Shown here in pieces: positions 15,740-44,402 of a stretch of 64,000 bases of DNA. Position 1 is the first letter of the stretch, and each line of letters starts with the position of its first letter. Location of the stretch: contig NZ_JAINWA010000001.1 in assembly GCF_021021555.1 (NCBI RefSeq), positions 1,054,001 through 1,118,000 of the forward strand, given 5' to 3'. The notes under the pieces are model-generated. The model was not told the DNA's origin and did no database searches. It saw only the letters and a list, made by a program, of their open reading frames with translations. The stretch comes from Teretinema zuelzerae (lineage in GTDB: Bacteria > Spirochaetota > Spirochaetia > Treponematales > Treponemataceae). A program made the position numbers and the translations under genes.

Positions 15740-17086
15740 ATGAAAGATTTGACAGAGGGGAACGAGGCGCGGCTGCTCGTTTCGTTTTCGATTCCGATGC
15801 TGTTCGGGAATCTGTTTCAGCAGTTGTACAATATGGTCGACAGCGTGGTCGTCGGAAACTGGGTGGGCAAGGAGGCGCTGGCTGCCGTCGGCGCGAGTTT
15901 TCCGGTCATTTTTCTGCTGTTGTCGCTGTTCATGGGCCTCTCGATGGGCGCGAACATTCTGATTTCCCAGTTTCACGGGGCGCGCGATTCGGAGCGGGTC
16001 AGACTTTCGATCGAGACGAATTACCTTTTTACCTTTTGGGCGGGACTGGTTCTGACGGCGGTCGGGTTTTTCGGCGCAGAACCGATCATGATGCTGCTGC
16101 AGAGCCCGCCGGAAGTGCTTCCCCAGGCGGCCTTGTATTTGAGGCTCTATAGTCTGGGCATGCTCTTTTTCCTGGGGTTCAATACCGTCAGCGGAATTTT
16201 GCGGGGGCTCGGTGATTCGAAAAACCCTTTGTGGATGCTCGCGATTTCCACCGTGCTCAACATCGCGCTCGATCTCCTTTTTGTGATCGTGTTTCATTGG
16301 GGAGTGATGGGAGTCGCCGTGGCGACCATCATCAGCCAGGGGGTCGCGCTCGGCCTCGCGCTTGCATATCTCAACAGGACGCACGAGCTGTTGCGCGTCG
16401 ATTTCCGCAAGCTCAGGTTCGACCGCGAGATTTTCATGTCCAGCGTCAGGATCGGGATTCCTTCCGGGATACAGCAGTCGCTCGTGGCGCTCGGGATCAG
16501 CACTATGACGGGAATCGTCAACGGTTTCGGCACCGACGCGATCGCCGGCTACGCCGCAGCGACGAGGATCGAGAGCATCGCGTCTCTTCCGGCGATGACG
16601 ATCGGCATGGCGCTTTCCACCTTCGTCGGGCAGAACCTGGGAGCCGGCAAGCCGGAACGGGTCAGGCGCGGGTTGAACGCGGCTTTGATCTTTTCCGTAA
16701 GCATATCGATCGCGGCCGCGGCGGTTTTCCATTTCGCCGGAGACGCGCTGGTAGCCATGTTCAATTCCGATCCGGGCGTTCTGGAGGCGGGCGCGGGGTA
16801 CCTGCGGATCATCGGCCCGTTCTTCGTCGTATTTTCCGTTATGTTCATGCTCAACGGCGTAATCCGCGGCGCGGGAGAAACCCTGATTCCGCTCGCGAGC
16901 ACGCTGGTCGCCATGTGGCTGGTCCGCGTGCCGACAGCCTTCGCGCTTTCCCGGCTGCTGGGACTGCAGGGCGTCTGGTTCGCCTTCCCCACCGGCTGGA
17001 TAGTCGGCACCCTGGTCGCCTTCGTCTATTACCGCACCGGCCGCTGGATGAAAACCTTCGAACGCATCCACTCGCGCAGAGGCTGA
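15740..17086 (+). CDS. MATE family efflux transporter
   Basis: 448 aa inner-membrane protein with twelve hydrophobic helices in two halves. The first half has FSIPMLFGNLFQQLYNMVDS and the second FDREIFMSSVRIGIPSGIQQ, as in MATE antiporters that export cationic drugs or metabolites using sodium or protons. The ATG at 15740 is preferred because GGATGGACC precedes it and the family's usual DLTEG start follows; the open frame begins at 15710. The stop at 17084-17086 is followed at once by the first 20-bp repeat array. Confidence 0.9.
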   Translation: MKDLTEGNEARLLVSFSIPMLFGNLFQQLYNMVDSVVVGNWVGKEALAAVGASFPVIFLLLSLFMGLSMGANILISQFHGARDSERVRLSIETNYLFTFWAGLVLTAVGFFGAEPIMMLLQSPPEVLPQAALYLRLYSLGMLFFLGFNTVSGILRGLGDSKNPLWMLAISTVLNIALDLLFVIVFHWGVMGVAVATIISQGVALGLALAYLNRTHELLRVDFRKLRFDREIFMSSVRIGIPSGIQQSLVALGISTMTGIVNGFGTDAIAGYAAATRIESIASLPAMTIGMALSTFVGQNLGAGKPERVRRGLNAALIFSVSISIAAAAVFHFAGDALVAMFNSDPGVLEAGAGYLRIIGPFFVVFSVMFMLNGVIRGAGETLIPLASTLVAMWLVRVPTAFALSRLLGLQGVWFAFPTGWIVGTLVAFVYYRTGRWMKTFERIHSRRG

Positions 17087-17090
17087 GCGG

Positions 17091-17672
17091 ACGCGCGAAG
17101 ACCGTGAGTGCTAGCGGGCACCGTGTTGCGTGGGCGAAGACCGTGACTGCAAGCGGTCACCGTGGTGCGCGGGCGGTCACCGTGATGCGCTAGCGGTCAC
17201 CGTGATGCGCGCGCGAAGACCGTGAGCTCTAGCGGTCACCGTGATGCGCGGGCGGTAAGCGTGAGTGCTAGCGACCACCGTAATTCGCGCGCGAAGACCG
17301 TGAGTGCTAGCGGGCACCGTGATGCGCGCGCGAAGACCGTGAGCGCTAGCGGTAAGCGTGAGTGCTAGCGGGCACCGTGTTGCGCGGGCGCGCGAAGACC
17401 GTAACAGATAGCTATCACCGTGATGCGTGCACGGTAAGCGTGAGCGCTAGCGGGCACAGTGGCGCGCGGGCGCGCGAAGACCGTAACAGATAGCTATCAC
17501 CGTGATGCGTGCACGGTAAGCGTAAGCGATAGCTATCACCGTGACCCGCGAACGGTAAGCGTGAGTGTTAGCTGTCACCGTGATGCGCGGGCGCGCGAAG
17601 ACCGTAACAGCTAGCTGTCACCGTGATGCGCGAACGGTAAGCGTGAGTGCTAGCGGGCACCGTGATGCGCGG
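17091..17672. repeat. Tandem array 1 of 19-20 bp units between convergent genes
   Basis: About 30 head-to-tail, degenerate units fill this whole gap. Two unit types tend to alternate: AGTGCTAGCGGGCACCGTG (19 bp) and ATGCGCGCGCGAAGACCGTG (20 bp). Variants include GGTCACC or GGTAAGC in the middle, and an expanded 24-bp unit with an extra GCGC (near 17390, 17469 and 17588). Nearly every unit ends in GTG or GTA. Units contain short inverted repeats (GTGC with GCAC, GCTAGC, TCACCGTGA), so RNA from either strand could fold. There are no unique spacers, so it is not CRISPR. It runs from 4 bp after the MATE stop to the LacI stop codon. The same unit family recurs at 37682-38153. Confidence 0.9.
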
Positions 17673-18668
17673 TCAGCTTGAGGCGCGAACGATGAGTTTC
17701 GGTTTATAGAGGATGGTTTTTTCTTCGAACACGCAAGATTTGAGAAGCGCGAGGGTTTCCTGATAGGCGCACTTTCCGATGTGGGAAAGGGGCTGATTGA
17801 CGGTGGTCAGGGCGGGAGTAACGAGAGCCGCGCCCGAAATGTCGTCGTAGCCGACCAGGGACAGTTCGGAAGGAATGTCCAAACCGCGGTTCTTCGCGGC
17901 GAACAGAATGCCCATTGCGACCTCGTCGCCGGCGGCGCAGAACAGCGAATCCATGCCGAGCTCGAGCGCTTTATCGAGGACGGCCTTTCCTTCTTCGAAA
18001 TAATAGTTTTCGATCGAGAGAATCATCGAAGGATCGTAGGAAATATTTCTCTCCACCAGCGCTTGAATAAACCCGCGTTTTCGTTCTCTCTGGCTGAGGT
18101 GGTAGTACTCACCGACCGAACCGATTACAAGCCCGGGCTTTTTCCTGCCGCGAGAGAGCAGATGCTCCGTCCCCGCATATCCGCCCTGAAAATTATCCAG
18201 CTGGATGCCAAGGGTGCCCGGCGCGTTTTCGTCGATCACGACAAGCGGAATTTTATTCTTCTGGTACAGCGCCACGGTTTCCTCGGACGGACAGATGCTC
18301 AGGGCGATCGCCGCGTCGGCTCTGCGGCCGTGCACGATCTCCTTCAGGACCCGCTCATCCTCGTTCAACGTGGAATACAAGGTGATCAGATAACCGGAGG
18401 GAGTTTCGACGATGGCCTGCTCGATGCCCTTCATCACTTCCATCTCGTAGGGAGACGAAAAGAACGACGCGACGACGGCGATGGTATGTGTCTTGCCGCT
18501 CACCAAACTTCTGGCAAGATAGTTGGGATGATAATCGAGTTCCTCAATAGCCTTGAGGACCCTGGCCTTTGTCTCTTCCGTGATTCCCGGATGCCCATGG
18601 ATTGTCCATGAGACCGTTGTATGGGAGACGCCGGCCGCTTTCGCCACATCATGAATCGTTACTGCCAT
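17673..18668 (-). CDS. LacI-family transcriptional repressor
   Basis: 331 aa. N-terminal LacI helix-turn-helix TIHDVAKAAGVSHTTVSW, hinge region YHPNYLARSLVSG, then a periplasmic-binding-like sugar domain with typical end motifs (LVGYDDISGAALVTPALTTV). It is the last gene of the minus-strand sugar-ABC operon, 36 bp after gene 18705-19676. By position it is the likely repressor acting on the palindromes at 24348-24361 and 24479-24490 and responding to an oligosaccharide (inference). A local TACTAT promoter-like element and GAGGA precede ATG 18668. Its stop codon touches repeat array 1. Confidence 0.9.
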   Translation of the reverse strand: MAVTIHDVAKAAGVSHTTVSWTIHGHPGITEETKARVLKAIEELDYHPNYLARSLVSGKTHTIAVVASFFSSPYEMEVMKGIEQAIVETPSGYLITLYSTLNEDERVLKEIVHGRRADAAIALSICPSEETVALYQKNKIPLVVIDENAPGTLGIQLDNFQGGYAGTEHLLSRGRKKPGLVIGSVGEYYHLSQRERKRGFIQALVERNISYDPSMILSIENYYFEEGKAVLDKALELGMDSLFCAAGDEVAMGILFAAKNRGLDIPSELSLVGYDDISGAALVTPALTTVNQPLSHIGKCAYQETLALLKSCVFEEKTILYKPKLIVRASS

Positions 18669-35782: not shown

Positions 35783-37582
35783 ATGAAAGCCAAACACAGC
35801 TTTGCACACATCTTTAGAGCCTTCGCGGCAATCAGCGCGCTGACTCTGCTCATCTCGTGCGGCGGAAAAGCCGCCCCGACAGGACAGACATACGCGCCGG
35901 GTACGTACACAGCAAGCGCGAAAGGATATCACGGAGACGTTACCGTCGCCGTTAAAGTCACCAAGAACAAGATCGCGAGCGTCCGCGTGCTCAAGCACGG
36001 AGAGACCCCCGGAATCAGCGATCTGGCGATTTCAGGCATTCCGAAGGCCATCGTAGACAGCCAGAGCCTCGCGGTCGACAGCGTTTCCGGAGCTAGCTTC
36101 TCCAGCAAAGCCGTCATCGAAGCGACGACCGCAGCCTTGAAAGAAGCGGGAGCCGACATCGAAAAACTGATGGTTCCCGGAGCCGCGGCAGAGAAAGAAG
36201 CCGATGTCGAGCTTTCTGCCGACGTCGTCGTAATCGGAGCGGGCGGAGCCGGAATGGCGGCCGGAGTTTCGGCTCACCAGAACGGAGCGACCGTCGTCAT
36301 CCTTGAAAAAATGGCAAAAGTGGGCGGAAACACCATCAGCGCCGGCGGCGCCATGAACGCGGTAGACGAAGGAAGCGAAACCGCGATCAAAAACAAGGAC
36401 TCGGTAGCCCTCCACTTCAAGCAAACCTATGAAGGCGGAGACAAGAAGGGAGACGAAGTCCTCGTTAAAACCCTGGTTGAAAACGCCTGGGCGTCTGTCG
36501 AATGGCTTCAGTCCATGGGAATGAAATTCCTCCCCGAACCCTTCACCGTCACCGGCGGCCTCTGGCCCCGCGCGCACAAACCCGTCGATCCGGTCGGAAC
36601 AGGATTCTTCAAAACCTATAACGCTTATATCGAAGCGAACAAGGGAATCGAAGTCCGCCTGAATACTAAAGCAGAGAAGCTCATCGTCGAGAACGGAAAG
36701 GTCGTCGGAGTAATAGCCACGGGCAAAACCGGCAACAAGATCACCGTCAAGGCGAACAAGGGCGTCGTTATCGCCTCCGGCGGATTCGGACAGAACGTCG
36801 CGATGCGCCAGGAATTCAACAAGCAGTGGCCCACCCTCGATGAAACCATCAAGAGCACAAACCATCCCGGAGCGACCGGCGACGGAATCATGATGGGACG
36901 CGAAGTTAACGCGGCGATCGTACAGATGGAAAACATCCAGCTCCTCCCCCTCGGAGACCCCGAAACCGGAAGCCTGAGCGGAAACATCGAAACCGACGTC
37001 GAGAAGCGCATCTACGTGAACATCGAAGGAAACAGGTTCGTAGACGAAGGAGCCCGCCGCGACACCATGACGCTGGCGCTCTTCAACCAGCCCCAGAAGA
37101 AACTCTGGATCGTCGTCGACGCGCACTCCTATCCCGAAGGAACCGTTAAAAACAACTTCAACGAAACCATCGACGGCCTGGTCGCCGACGGACGCGCATT
37201 CAAGGGCGAAACCGTGGAAGAACTGGCAGAGAAGATCGGCGTGCCTCCCGCGAACCTCGCGGCGACCGTTGCCGAGTTCAACAAGCACGTCGCTTCAAAA
37301 ACGCCGGACGCCTTCGGACGCACGCTCTACTCTGTGCCGCTCGACAAGGGTCCCTACTATGCCGGAGCCCGCGTTCCCACCGTCCACCACACCATGGGCG
37401 GAATCAAGATCGACGCTGAAACCCATGTCATCGACGTAAACGGAAACGTCATCCCCGGACTCTACGCCGCAGGCGAAGTAACCGGCGGAATCCACGGATC
37501 CAACCGCCTCGGCGGAAACGCGCTGACCGACATCACCGTCTTCGGCCGCATCGCCGGAGCGAATGCCGCTCAGGGCAAGTAA
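35783..37582 (+). CDS. Periplasmic FMN/FAD lipoprotein reductase (fumarate/urocanate reductase family)
   Basis: 599 aa. A signal sequence ends in lipobox LLISC. An FMN-binding domain follows (about residues 38-120) with the covalent FMN attachment motif DSVSGASFSS, the target of the ApbE flavin transferase. Then comes a fumarate-reductase-type FAD domain (VVVIGAGGAGMAAGVS, LEKMAKVGGNTISAGGAMNA). Active-site elements match flavocytochrome c: ARRD (catalytic Arg region), VHHTMGG (His) and GSNRLGGNALTD (Arg). It should reduce fumarate or a related unsaturated acid, drawing electrons through FMN instead of haem. No electron-donor gene adjoins it. GGAG precedes ATG 35783, and terminators follow at 37590-37676. 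Confidence 0.9.
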   Translation: MKAKHSFAHIFRAFAAISALTLLISCGGKAAPTGQTYAPGTYTASAKGYHGDVTVAVKVTKNKIASVRVLKHGETPGISDLAISGIPKAIVDSQSLAVDSVSGASFSSKAVIEATTAALKEAGADIEKLMVPGAAAEKEADVELSADVVVIGAGGAGMAAGVSAHQNGATVVILEKMAKVGGNTISAGGAMNAVDEGSETAIKNKDSVALHFKQTYEGGDKKGDEVLVKTLVENAWASVEWLQSMGMKFLPEPFTVTGGLWPRAHKPVDPVGTGFFKTYNAYIEANKGIEVRLNTKAEKLIVENGKVVGVIATGKTGNKITVKANKGVVIASGGFGQNVAMRQEFNKQWPTLDETIKSTNHPGATGDGIMMGREVNAAIVQMENIQLLPLGDPETGSLSGNIETDVEKRIYVNIEGNRFVDEGARRDTMTLALFNQPQKKLWIVVDAHSYPEGTVKNNFNETIDGLVADGRAFKGETVEELAEKIGVPPANLAATVAEFNKHVASKTPDAFGRTLYSVPLDKGPYYAGARVPTVHHTMGGIKIDAETHVIDVNGNVIPGLYAAGEVTGGIHGSNRLGGNALTDITVFGRIAGANAAQGK

Positions 37583-37630
37583 AAAAAGCCCGCCTGATAA
37601 AAGGCGGACTCGTTTGCTGAAAACTGAAAA

Positions 37631-37676
37631 AACCTTCCGCCGAACGGCTTTTGCCCGAAGCGGAAGGTTTTTTTTT
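37631..37676 (+). terminator. Intrinsic terminator after the flavoprotein gene
   Basis: AACCTTCCGC (37631-37640) and GCGGAAGGTT (37660-37669) form a perfect 10-bp stem followed by a run of T to 37676. A weaker hairpin (GCCCGCC with GGCGGAC, about 37589-37611) precedes it. Repeat array 2 starts only a few bases later. Confidence 0.92.
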
Positions 37677-37681
37677 CGCGC

Positions 37682-38153
37682 TCAGGGTGAGCGCGAGCGG
37701 TCACCGTGCTACGCGAGCAGTCACCGTGCGGCGCTGGCGGTAAGGGTGAGCGCGAGCGGTCACCGTGTTGCGCTGGCGATCACCGTTTTGAGCGAGCGGT
37801 AAACGTGCTGCGCTGGCGATCACCGTGATGCGCGAGCGGTCACCGTGCGGCGCTGGCGGTAAGGGTGATGCTCGCGCGGTCACCGTGTTGCGCTGGCGAT
37901 CACCGTGATGCGCGAGCGGTAAGCGTGAGCGCGAGCGGTCACCGTGTTGCGCGAGCGGTCACCGTGTTGCGCTGGCGGTAAGCGTAAGTGCTAGCTATCA
38001 CCGTGTTGCGCTGGCGGTAAGCGTGATGCGCGAGCGGTAAGCGTGATGCGCGAGCGGTAAGCGTGATGCGCTGGCGATCACCGTGTTGCGCTGGCGGTCA
38101 CCGTGTTGCGCGAGCGGTCACCGTGATGCGCTGGCGATCACCGTGATGCGCGG
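37682..38153. repeat. Tandem array 2 of 19-20 bp units between convergent genes
   Basis: About 24 contiguous units with a 20-bp period, mixing a few module variants: ATGCGCGAGCGGTCACCGTG, TTGCGCTGGCGATCACCGTG and ATGCGCGAGCGGTAAGCGTG. The left half varies between GCGCGAGCG and GCGCTGGCG, the right half between GTCACC, ATCACC and GTAAGC. TCACCGTGA across unit junctions is a near palindrome. It has the same unit logic as array 1 (17091-17672) with a different mix. The last bases code for the C-terminal RASR and stop of the amidohydrolase gene on the minus strand, so the array has grown into, or donated, the end of that gene. There are no unique spacers. Confidence 0.9.
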
Positions 38154-38941
38154 GAGTGTTTCTGCATGAGGGCGCGGGCGTTGCCGGAAAAGACGAGAGA
38201 TTCTTGAGCGGCGGACAAGCCGATCGAGAGGACCGCTTCTATTTGCTTCCGCTGATCCTTCCAGGGCGAGTCGCTCCCGAACAGGATCCGCTCTGCTCCG
38301 CAGCGTTCTATGATCGCGTCGCGTACGGCAGGATCGGCTTCGTCGATGAAGGACGTATCGAAATAGCAAGGCGAACCGGCCAGCTGTTCGAGAACATCTT
38401 CCCAGGCCAGCCACCCGCCCAGATGCGCCGCGATGATATCAAGGTCAGGGAAGCGGTCTATGAGCTTCCGCATCCTTCGGGGATGGGCGTTGTCCGCGCC
38501 GGCGAAGGCAATGTCGTATCCTGAGTGAAGAAGAACGAACATGCCGCTTTCCTGTATCGCGCGGAAAAACGGCGCAAGGGACGAATCGTCTACGTTGAAA
38601 CGCTGATAGAGAGGATGCAGCTTGAGCCCTGCAAAGCCGGCTTCGCGGAAGGCATATATCTCCTCTTCGAAAACCGGACTCTCGGGATGAACCGAACCCA
38701 GAAACACAAAGCGATCCGATGAAACGGAACGGGACCATTCCAGTATCGCGCCCGCTTGAGCCGGTTTGGTGGCAATATTCGCTATCCACGAAAGCTCTAC
38801 GCCGGACGCATCCATGGAGGAAGCAAGGCCGGCGAGAGTTCCGTCGGAACAGGGCGTATAGTCTCCTGAATCGGCCGTCAGCGAAGCCATGGCCCGCTCG
38901 GCAAGAAAATCGGGAAACGCGTGGGCATGTACGTCTATCAT
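38138..38941 (-). CDS. Amidohydrolase family metal-dependent hydrolase
   Basis: 267 aa cytoplasmic protein of the amidohydrolase_2 (TIM-barrel) family. The N-terminal metal site is MIDVHAHAFPDFL. Further barrel strands are FAGLKLHPLYQRF, FVLLHSGYDIAF, IIAAHLGGWLAW and, with the last Asp ligand, ERILFGSDSPWKDQRKQIE. The substrate is unknown; relatives include decarboxylases and lactonases. ATG 38941 was chosen because it begins the metal motif and has GGAG about 11 bases upstream; the frame is open to 39046. Its last four codons and stop lie in repeat array 2. It is last in a minus-strand run with the next two genes. Confidence 0.85.
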   Translation of the reverse strand: MIDVHAHAFPDFLAERAMASLTADSGDYTPCSDGTLAGLASSMDASGVELSWIANIATKPAQAGAILEWSRSVSSDRFVFLGSVHPESPVFEEEIYAFREAGFAGLKLHPLYQRFNVDDSSLAPFFRAIQESGMFVLLHSGYDIAFAGADNAHPRRMRKLIDRFPDLDIIAAHLGGWLAWEDVLEQLAGSPCYFDTSFIDEADPAVRDAIIERCGAERILFGSDSPWKDQRKQIEAVLSIGLSAAQESLVFSGNARALMQKHSRASR

Positions 38942-38964
38942 CGGGTCATGCTCTCCGCGAATAG

Positions 38965-39729
38965 TCAATCCGCATAATCGTATACAATTTCGACAGTTTG
39001 AATTTTGCCGCGATCGTCCTGTATATTGGACAGACCCTTGTACCACAGCATCCGTCTTTTCCCGATGTCGTACCGAACCTCGAGCTTCGGAGCGAACAGC
39101 CTGAGAAAACGGTTTTGAATATGTATCGTGAGCTCGGCGACTCCGTTCCGCTCTCCGCGCACTTCAAGCTCGAAGTCGTACACTTCCCTTGTTCCGGTGA
39201 TCAGGAGTTTCAGAGGAACGCGGCCCTTGAGCTTGGCTTCCTGATAGTATTCCTGCAGATAATAGAAAAGACCCTGGCAGCCGACCATCAGAATCTCGCC
39301 GTCTCCCGTCAGAGCAACCTCTTTCCGGTTTTCTTTTTCGTCCGTTCCCGGATCGAAGGAGAAAAGAACCGCGGCTCCCTTTTCGTAGCGAACGCCGTGG
39401 CGGAATCCGTTTCGGTAATCTTCGAACACGTGAGCGGGCGCCGCGAGCGATTCGGTAAAGTAGGATTCGATGTAGGCCAGAGGCTCGCCGTTCTCCCTCA
39501 GATAATCGGTTCTCGCGCGGTATATCTTTCCGTCGCGATATTCCGACTCGTGCTTTTCGACGTAGGAGACCTTTCCGCCCCGAGTCGCTACGGACGAAAA
39601 TCTCAAGATCTTGTTTTCTGCAGCAGAACCGGCGGACTGGGCGGCGAGCGATCCGGAGGTTCCTGCCAACAAAGCGACTGACAGAGCCGCTGCGATTTTG
39701 CGGGTTCCGGTAATTGAGGCGTTCATCAC
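38965..39729 (-). CDS. Secreted protein of unknown function
   Basis: 254 aa with a cleavable signal peptide (ALSVALLAGTSGSLAAQS), so probably periplasmic. The mature part is beta-rich with repeated charged strand patterns (VSYVEKHESEYRDGKIYRAR, GEILMVGCQGLFYYLQEYY, FAPKLEVRYDIGKRRMLWYK), suggesting a lipid-binding or barrel-like fold. I do not recognise a family. It overlaps the lipocalin gene by 4 bp (ATGA), so the two are coupled and a shared envelope or lipid role is plausible. The start may be ATG 39729 or 39726. Confidence 0.75.
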   Translation of the reverse strand: MMNASITGTRKIAAALSVALLAGTSGSLAAQSAGSAAENKILRFSSVATRGGKVSYVEKHESEYRDGKIYRARTDYLRENGEPLAYIESYFTESLAAPAHVFEDYRNGFRHGVRYEKGAAVLFSFDPGTDEKENRKEVALTGDGEILMVGCQGLFYYLQEYYQEAKLKGRVPLKLLITGTREVYDFELEVRGERNGVAELTIHIQNRFLRLFAPKLEVRYDIGKRRMLWYKGLSNIQDDRGKIQTVEIVYDYAD

Positions 39730-42434: not shown

Positions 42435-44402
42435 TCACCAATGAAAAAAACATATAAGGGCAGGAACGCACAGCGAAAACGCAAGAGCGGCGTAGTCGCG
42501 GAACGCGAGCGCCTTCATGCGCTTGCGCCTCTTGACGGCGCCCTGGAAACCGCGCGCTTCCATCGCCTGCGAAAGCTCGTCCGCGCGCGTAAAGGCCACC
42601 AGAAAAACGGGAACCGTCAGCGCGAGAACGCTCAGCGTTTTAACGGCGATGTTCCGGGAATCGAAGCGGGCGCCTCGCGCCGTCTGCGCCTTGCGGATGC
42701 AGTCCGCTTCGTCGCGGAGCAGCGGAACGAATCGCAGCGCGATTCCCAGAATCAGGGCAATCTCCGCCGCCGGAAGGCGAAGCAGAGACAGGGGAGAAAT
42801 CGCGCGCTCGATCGCGCCGGTCAATTGAGGCGGAGAAGTAGTCTCTATCAGCGCGTTTCCCAAAAGGGTCAGAATCAGCACGCGGAAGGCGATCGAAGCT
42901 CCCTGCGCCGCGCCCGCGCGGGAAGGCGTAAATATCCACCAGGACCATCCTCCGGAAGACTCGAAAAAAAGAAAGTTCAAAACGAATACGAAAAACACGA
43001 ACCAACCCAGGCCGCCCAGATAGCGCGCCAAGGCAGAAGGGCGCAACCCCGACGCCGAGAATACGGCTGCCGCCGCTCCGGCGACGAGGAGAAATCCCGC
43101 GAGCGTGTCTGCGAACAGCACCGCCGCGAGCAAAAGACAAAACGAGGCCAGCTTCGCGCCGGCATTCATCCGCTCGAGAAAAGACGGCCGGGGCGGCAGA
43201 CTGCGATTATCGTCCTGTGCAGGCTGCGCGAGCCCCCCGCCGTGTGCGAGCCCCTCGCCCTGTGCGAGCCCCCCGCCCTGTGCAGGCTGCGCGCCCTGTG
43301 CGAGCCCCCCGCCGTGTGCGAGCCCCTCGCCCTGTGCGAGCTCCCCGCCCTGTACGAGCCCCCCGCCCTGTGCACGCTCGCCGCCCTGTGCAAGCCCCCC
43401 GCCCTGTGCGAGCTCCCCACCCTGTACGAGCCCCCCGCCCTGTGCGAGCTCCCCACCCTGTACGAGCCCCCCGCCCTGTGCGAGCTCCCCACCCTGTACG
43501 AGCCCCCCGCCCTGTGCAGGCTGCGCGGCCTGTGCGAGCCCCCCGCCCATCCCTTTCAGCCTTTCCGTCAACGCTGTGCGCAGCTCCCCGCCCATGCCTT
43601 TCAGCCTTTTCGCCAACGCTGTGCGCAGCTCCTCGTAACGGAACACGCCCTCGCCGACGTCGATTCCCGCCTCGCGCAAAGCAGCGGCGACGCTTCGCAC
43701 CGGACTCGCCGGCATCAGAACAGACTCGCGGACGGGAGAATCTTCCGCAACGGCGCCCTCTTCAAGAACAATTACCCTGGAGCAATGCTCGCACACGGCG
43801 TCCGCGTCGTGGGTCGCCATGAGTATCGAAACGCCCCGGCGGTTGAGCCGGTCCAAAAGAAACAGAAAATCGCGCCGTCCCGCGGGGTCCAATCCCGCCG
43901 TCGGCTCGTCGAGCAGCAGATAATCCGGACGCGAAGCGAGTATTCCCGCGATCGCGACGCGGCGCTTCTCTCCGCCTGAAAGTACTAAAGGCGATACGTC
44001 GGCATACTCGCCGTACTCAAGGCCGACCGCATCGAAGGCCTCTCGAATCCTGGCCTCCCGTTCCGCATCCGGAAGTCTCTTCCGCTTCAGCGCGAAGCCG
44101 ACGTCCGCCGCGGCGGTGAGCGCGAAAAGCTGAGTCTCCGGATATTGAAACACGATCCCGATTTTTTCGTTCCCCGCCTTCCGGAGCTCTTCCCCGTCCA
44201 GGAAGACCGCCCCGCTCGAAGGAGAGGCGAGGCCCGCGGCGATTTGCAGCAGCGTGGATTTTCCGCACCCCGTCTTTCCCATGAGGGCGACGAACTCGCC
44301 CCGGCCCACGGAAAACGACGCTCCCCGGAGCGCGCTTTTGGCAGCCGGCCCGCGGTGAAAAGACGGATACGCGTACCAGGCGTTTCTTACTTCAAGCGGC
44401 AT
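42435..44402 (-). CDS. Fused ECF ATPase and EcfT transmembrane protein with repeat linker
   Basis: 655 aa. Residues 1-245 are an ECF-type ABC ATPase: Walker A MGKTGCGKSTLL, signature VLSGGEKRR, Walker B DYLLLDEPTAGLDP. Residues about 255-283 hold a duplicated block (RTALAKRLKGMGG, RTALTERLKGMGG). Residues about 284-392 are 18 hexapeptide repeats of GGGLVQ/GGELAQ type. Residues about 405-655 are EcfT: four to five membrane helices and both coupling-helix motifs with ARG (AQTARGARFD and AMEARGFQG). EcfA and EcfT are normally separate proteins, so the fusion is unusual, although ATPase-T fusions exist. It overlaps the upstream ecfA by 16 bp and is followed 50 bp later by the S component. Confidence 0.88.
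   Translation of the reverse strand: MPLEVRNAWYAYPSFHRGPAAKSALRGASFSVGRGEFVALMGKTGCGKSTLLQIAAGLASPSSGAVFLDGEELRKAGNEKIGIVFQYPETQLFALTAAADVGFALKRKRLPDAEREARIREAFDAVGLEYGEYADVSPLVLSGGEKRRVAIAGILASRPDYLLLDEPTAGLDPAGRRDFLFLLDRLNRRGVSILMATHDADAVCEHCSRVIVLEEGAVAEDSPVRESVLMPASPVRSVAAALREAGIDVGEGVFRYEELRTALAKRLKGMGGELRTALTERLKGMGGGLAQAAQPAQGGGLVQGGELAQGGGLVQGGELAQGGGLVQGGELAQGGGLAQGGERAQGGGLVQGGELAQGEGLAHGGGLAQGAQPAQGGGLAQGEGLAHGGGLAQPAQDDNRSLPPRPSFLERMNAGAKLASFCLLLAAVLFADTLAGFLLVAGAAAAVFSASGLRPSALARYLGGLGWFVFFVFVLNFLFFESSGGWSWWIFTPSRAGAAQGASIAFRVLILTLLGNALIETTSPPQLTGAIERAISPLSLLRLPAAEIALILGIALRFVPLLRDEADCIRKAQTARGARFDSRNIAVKTLSVLALTVPVFLVAFTRADELSQAMEARGFQGAVKRRKRMKALAFRDYAALAFSLCVPALICFFHW
43219..43545 (-). 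repeat. Intragenic 18-bp tandem repeat coding for hexapeptide linker
   Basis: About 18 in-frame 18-bp units inside the ECF fusion gene; on the plus strand a unit reads near CGCCCTGTGCGAGCCCCC. They code for GGGLVQ, GGELAQ and variants (AAQPAQ, GEGLAH). The alternating unit pairs suggest expansion by duplication of 36-bp dimers. Copy number is likely to vary between strains. Confidence 0.92.

Follow-up and report, generated by a model that had tools for sequence, protein, structure and literature searches.

What is the GC-rich tandem array that lies between two convergent genes at positions 37687-38152 of the window (the whole stretch of 64,000 nucleotides that was analysed), and does it serve the ends of these genes or is it only tolerated there? 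The preliminary description suggested that it belongs, together with a second array, to a BIME-like family that may act on supercoiling or mRNA 3' ends. The relevant features of the window are as follows.

35783-37582, plus strand: left flanking gene, FAD_binding_2/FMN_bind flavoprotein (fumarate-reductase-like)
37586-37611, minus strand: hairpin with a T tail on this strand, possible distal terminator of the amidohydrolase transcript
37648-37666, plus strand: hairpin stem with a T9 tail, terminator of the flavoprotein gene (dG about -21)
37687-38152, no strand: about 23 tandem units of 19-20 bp, with a higher-order duplication of 238 bp (84% identity)
38138-38941, minus strand: right flanking gene, Amidohydro_2 family (PF04909)
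38138-38152, minus strand: last four codons and stop codon (RASR*) of the amidohydrolase gene, array sequence
17092-17671, no strand: sister array 1, units of 19/20/24 bp, taking up the gap between a MatE gene (plus strand, stop at 17086) and a LacI-family gene (minus strand, stop at 17673)

Unit structure of the array

TRF reports a period of 20 and 23.5 copies over 37687-38152, and manual splitting yields 22 full units of 19-20 bp with partial units at the edges. Most units are 20 bp long, a few are 19 bp, and all are direct head-to-tail repeats. The unit consensus is about WTGCGC[GA/TG]GCGGT[CAC/AAG]CGTG, with two main alleles at the variable positions (GAGCGG or TGGCGA/G; TCACC or TAAGC) and with positions C6, G9, C10, T13, A15, G18 and T19 invariant across the array. 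The higher-order period of 238 bp at 84% identity indicates duplication of whole blocks, each about 12 units long. The 12-mer GCGGTCACCGTG, with one mismatch allowed, has 25 matches in the window (0.4 expected from shuffles), 23 of which fall inside this array and array 1. Thus the preliminary description, which gave about 24 units at 37682-38153 and a vocabulary shared by two arrays 20 kb apart, is borne out, and at least ten more arrays exist in the genome.

Both arrays contain stop codons in all six frames. As the unit length, moreover, is not a multiple of three, a coding function is rejected for the array at 37687-38152. Some other arrays of the family have open frames on one strand; several lack the six-frame stops, and thus a universal translation stop was discarded as a family trait.

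Ends of the flanking genes

The array begins about 105 bp past the stop codon of the flavoprotein gene and overruns the stop codon of the amidohydrolase gene by 15 bp. The T-tailed terminator that had been described to the left of the array, at 37631-37676, was confirmed, its stem occupying 37648-37666. Given the T-tailed hairpin on the minus strand at 37586-37611, the array lies between the amidohydrolase stop codon and a possible distal terminator. An intrinsic terminator was also considered as the identity of the array itself and rejected: inside 37687-38152 there is only a weak five-pair candidate, at the right edge.

The 3' end of the amidohydrolase gene, CGC GCA TCA CGG TGA, encodes RASR* and matches the array units, in agreement with the earlier placement of the last four codons and the stop inside the array. 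The C-termini of relatives, a comparison proposed at the same time, have other residues in this place and lack RASR: three homologues from sister species end in ...KRHGD, ...ARHAV and ...ARHGAGEKVSGSR. The gaps behind these three genes, each facing a convergent gene, contain no tandem array. As both the ends and the gaps differ, the last residues of the amidohydrolase were probably supplied by the array; that is, its C-terminal RASR is probably array-derived.

No DNA match to the arrays was found in 11 other genomes of the genus, mostly fragmented drafts that lose tandem arrays. A pattern search gave a hint of a three-unit array with a spacing of 37-38 bp in the sister genome G006 (C88:4061-4147). 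A weak match in the sister genome G004 (L046) is coding and was dismissed as chance. A complete genome of the same family, which we take to be probably that of Treponema brennaborense, has arrays of a different vocabulary that likewise begin at stop codons. They are located at L134:9252-9514, between convergent genes, and at L149:17081-17182, with a 19-bp unit. Thus GC-rich repeats at gene ends may extend beyond the family described here. No arrays of such kind in treponemes were found in the literature searched.

A family of related arrays

DNA searches of the same genome (3.6 Mb, about 53% GC, Treponemataceae type) revealed at least 12 related GC-rich arrays, as the preliminary description had anticipated in suggesting a genome-wide family. 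The blastn search with the array at 37687-38152 produced seven other array segments at E < 1e-11, and the total of at least 12 comes from a composite query. Their positions are:

C1: 48k, 606k, 731k, 1034k, 1071k (array 1), 1092k (the array at 37687-38152), 1127k, 1310k
C3: 751k, 848k, 907k, 1325k

In blastn, alignments between several of the arrays exceed 300 bp, with 67-75% identity, and each array has its own consensus. The family arrays show two-allele mosaic units and higher-order periods of 238, 276 and 121 bp, and the unit length stays at about 19-20 bp in most of them despite the differing sequence. Eight of 12 arrays contain the 9-mer CGGTAAGCG, the maximum in 200 column-permuted controls being 5; the 12 arrays of this test include C1:677k and C3:1622k, added by form, and leave out the sequence-matched C1:1127k and C1:1310k. 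This excess over the controls indicates that the arrays are related to each other and are not chance products of composition. In the systematic sample of the genome introduced below, 47 copies of CGGTAAGCG lie in arrays, 11 in coding sequences and none in any other gap. Hence solo units were not seen there, and the possibility of solo binding sites that sometimes amplify was ruled out.

Several other repeats and islands were seen. A gene in the window (42435-44402, minus strand) encodes an ABC_tran and CbiQ fusion; a coding minisatellite with an 18-bp unit specifies its linker (repeats GGGLAQ/GGELAQ, TRF 43224-43632). An array of a different kind, with 19-bp units of lower GC content and 97% homogeneity, lies in a co-directional gap at L101:12470-12709 (G000 C3:1692470-1692709), and a 138-bp unit is repeated 4.6 times between co-directional genes at L072:9274-9901. 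Islands of 32-41% GC, compared with about 53% for the genome, are located at about 1.74-1.88 Mb of C3 and at the ends of C1.

Placement at convergent junctions

The sample comprised 59 segments of 20 kb (1.18 Mb, a third of the genome), in which genes were predicted by a home-made caller; single gene starts may be wrong, and stop codons are firm. It contains 120 convergent (14%), 116 divergent and about 607 co-directional junctions. Among gaps of at least 80 bp, those with more than 40% of tandem repeat make up 6/40 convergent, 2/91 divergent and 5/177 co-directional ones (convergent against all others, 6/40 versus 7/268, p = 0.003). Arrays of 19-20-bp GC-rich units, typed by eye, were found in 5/40 convergent gaps versus 2/268 others (p = 0.0005). 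The neighbours are readable for 10 of the 12 family arrays, C1:1127k (1126875-1127108) and C1:1310k (1309683-1310216) being left out: seven arrays are convergent, three co-directional and none divergent (p = 9.5e-5). When the two arrays of the window are set aside, five of eight are convergent (p = 0.002). The enrichment at convergent junctions, on which the preliminary description had made its case depend, is thus seen both in the sampled gaps and in the family. The co-directional arrays start 3' of the stop codon of the upstream gene, at a distance of 34 bp (C1:48k), 19 bp (C3:751k) and, less tightly, 120 bp (C3:907k).

At 12 of 14 convergent ends the start of array-like sequence lies close to the stop codon, at a distance of -15 to +11 bp. 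The two others are left ends: that of the array at 37687-38152, which is separated from the stop codon by terminators, and that of the short array C3:1325k. Most arrays extend over the entire interval between the two convergent stop codons. Convergent gaps elsewhere in the sample have a median length of about 38 bp, and thus only short remnants between stop and array are to be expected anyway. At the array edges at position 17673 of the window and at L059:11483, the stop codon of the right neighbour is set in the same context (CTGACCGC); this neighbour is a LacI-family regulator in the window and resembles one, by eye, in L059.

Terminators at array ends

In a 150-nt scan, intrinsic terminators were detected at 1/14 array ends versus 106/238 other ends, and in a 200-nt scan at 3/14 versus 42/72 (p = 0.018). 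At the level of gaps, 4/7 array gaps and 12/36 others have a terminator at neither end, a difference that is not significant. At most convergent ends, no terminator survives between the stop codon and the array. The terminator beside the array at 37687-38152 had earlier been taken as evidence against a terminator-only role; this holds for the left side of this array, but not for the other arrays, which mostly have no terminators. Given that most array-filled ends lack an intrinsic terminator, the array may act as a passive bidirectional spacer or terminator.

RNA and DNA structure

The fold z-scores against shuffled sequences are -2.1/-2.3 for the array at 37687-38152 and +3.4/+0.3 for the related array C1:1034k. 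They vary from -3.9 to +3.4 among the convergent arrays of 19-20-bp units, and RNA structure was therefore rejected as a conserved feature. No Rfam match above the gathering score was found in 36500-39000. The only Y1 transposase (Y1_Tnp) of the genome has no array units near it. Thus, of the features of REP/BIME elements, the palindromic stem-loop unit is absent, folding being inconsistent between arrays; unit orientation does not alternate, as all units are direct; many scattered single copies are not found, as CGGTAAGCG is absent from the non-array gaps of the sample; and no RAYT transposase flanked by units is present. Lacking a consistent RNA fold, a palindrome and a linked RAYT, the arrays do not belong to the REP/BIME class, and the BIME-like assignment of the preliminary description has to be withdrawn. 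The Y1 transposase gene itself (L099:15300-16000, G000 C3:1575.6k) is adjacent to a REP-like hairpin, GGAATCAGGCTCGC...GCGAGCCGACGATTCC, unrelated to the arrays.

Purine-pyrimidine alternation is 0.57-0.70 in 11 of 12 arrays versus 0.456 +/- 0.042 in GC-rich non-array gaps. Either descent together with the core or selection may account for this trait. The alternating runs reach no more than 6-13 bp, too short for classical Z-DNA, and long Z-DNA tracts were thus rejected. The same applies to G-quadruplexes, as GGG runs are few or absent in most family arrays.

Origin and possible function

Judging from the DNA of one genome of the species, the array at 37687-38152 is probably a member of a dispersed, locally homogenised family of non-coding minisatellites, or satellites, at the 3' ends of genes. 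It has the properties of a satellite family: head-to-tail units in the range of 10-100 bp, related arrays at several loci and no coding function. The relatedness of the arrays, the private consensus of each, their placement and their edges are shown by the analysis. As for the origin, we infer that pieces of arrays reached new loci through recombination or some other form of copying; neither a transposase nor a target duplication that could account for the dispersal was found. The copies may then grow and be homogenised in situ by replication slippage and unequal exchange. Confinement to 3' ends could result if arrays that harm promoters or coding sequence are selected against: growth would halt at stop codons and promoter-bearing gaps would be purged of arrays, leaving 3'-3' junctions as a refuge. 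More weakly, a GC-rich untranslated array of 300-600 bp might be tolerated as a passive bidirectional spacer where converging transcripts end, ordinary terminators being mostly missing at such ends. On the other hand, the nearly constant units of 19-20 bp and the high alternation could mean selection on a property of the DNA, although common descent explains them as well.

The main rival of satellite turnover is a substitute for terminators. The array would be a functional bidirectional terminator or insulator, in which polymerases arriving from either side would pause and dissociate, through Rho or on colliding, so that antisense transcription of the opposing gene is prevented. The low number of array ends with an intrinsic terminator (1/14 or 3/14 versus 106/238 or 42/72), the stop-to-stop extent of the arrays at nearly all convergent ends and the position of co-directional arrays after an upstream stop agree with this. 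However, the absence of T runs is partly due to composition, and the amidohydrolase homologues of sister species have no array at their 3' ends. The transcript of a Rho site is expected to be rich in C and poor in G, while the co-directional arrays yield G-rich transcripts and a convergent array could favour one side only. The case is weakest for the very array at 37687-38152, which already has a terminator on one side, that of the flavoprotein gene, while the minus-strand hairpin past the array could terminate the amidohydrolase transcript. On balance such a function is rather unlikely, and it is less likely still that the arrays are a class of 3'-end elements replacing intrinsic terminators by a DNA property (alternating purine-pyrimidine steps, period of about 20 bp) and acting as bidirectional insulators of transcription or supercoiling.

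One could also suppose that each array was born independently from a local gene end, the shared core reflecting composition and stop context (TAAGCG, TGACCG). The private consensus of each array, the units that in many cases adjoin or overlap the stop codon of the gene itself and the analogous arrays of other vocabulary at stops in the apparent T. brennaborense (L134, L149) would fit, but the stop contexts of the genome are diverse, CGGTAAGCG is common to 8/12 arrays, far above permuted controls, and alignments of more than 300 bp at 67-75% identity make independent births improbable. A BIME-like supercoiling element, with repeated sites for gyrase or a nucleoid protein that relieve positive supercoils at convergent genes, seems from the sequences highly improbable: the enrichment at convergent junctions, the unit length (nearly constant, at about two turns of the helix) and the alternating steps common to the arrays are as it would predict, but the units are not palindromic and do not alternate in orientation, 19-20 bp is out of phase with 10.5 bp per turn, and the sample has no solo sites.

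Comparison with known systems

REP and BIME elements resemble the arrays in being extragenic, in the length of their units and in lying on the 3' sides of genes: their units of 20-40 bp lie mostly downstream of genes, between convergent or co-directional ORFs (PMC3733652, PMC2817692). However, REPs are palindromes that often occur singly or in opposite orientation, and the GTAG types are accompanied by RAYT genes (PMC3733652, PMC2817692), whereas the units here are directly repeated, do not fold consistently, were not seen singly and have no RAYT linked to them. The heptamer arrays GGGAATC/GGGGATT of Xanthomonas and Nostoc are likewise numerous dispersed intergenic tandem arrays, located in Xanthomonas near the upstream ORF, but they consist of 7-bp G-quadruplex units and only 11-16% lie between convergent ORFs (PMC4692102); the present family has 19-20-bp units with few G runs and is mostly convergent. 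The tandem repeats of Borgs also form many fast-evolving arrays, some intergenic, and one with 20-nt units is cited; however, Borg units are perfect, essentially unique to each region and in many cases coding (PMC9879509), whereas those considered here are degenerate and related between loci.

The closest parallel is Leptospira interrogans, described as the sole bacterium with families of transposed non-coding satellites, which are called rare (PMC6749651). There too, one family of non-coding tandem arrays occupies several loci of a spirochete chromosome; the units, compared by description, are 37, 46 and 69 bp rather than 19-20 bp, and a word search of that paper gave no statement on convergent junctions (PMC6749651). 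The present family adds a case of non-coding satellites from a different spirochete lineage; its units are shorter and it is clearly placed at 3' ends. Against a background in which dispersed bacterial satellite families are described as rare (PMC6749651), it follows a sharp stop-to-stop rule at convergent genes. It thus bears on the question of whether such arrays are tolerated junk, housed where a compact genome has its only room to spare, or whether they stand in for terminators.
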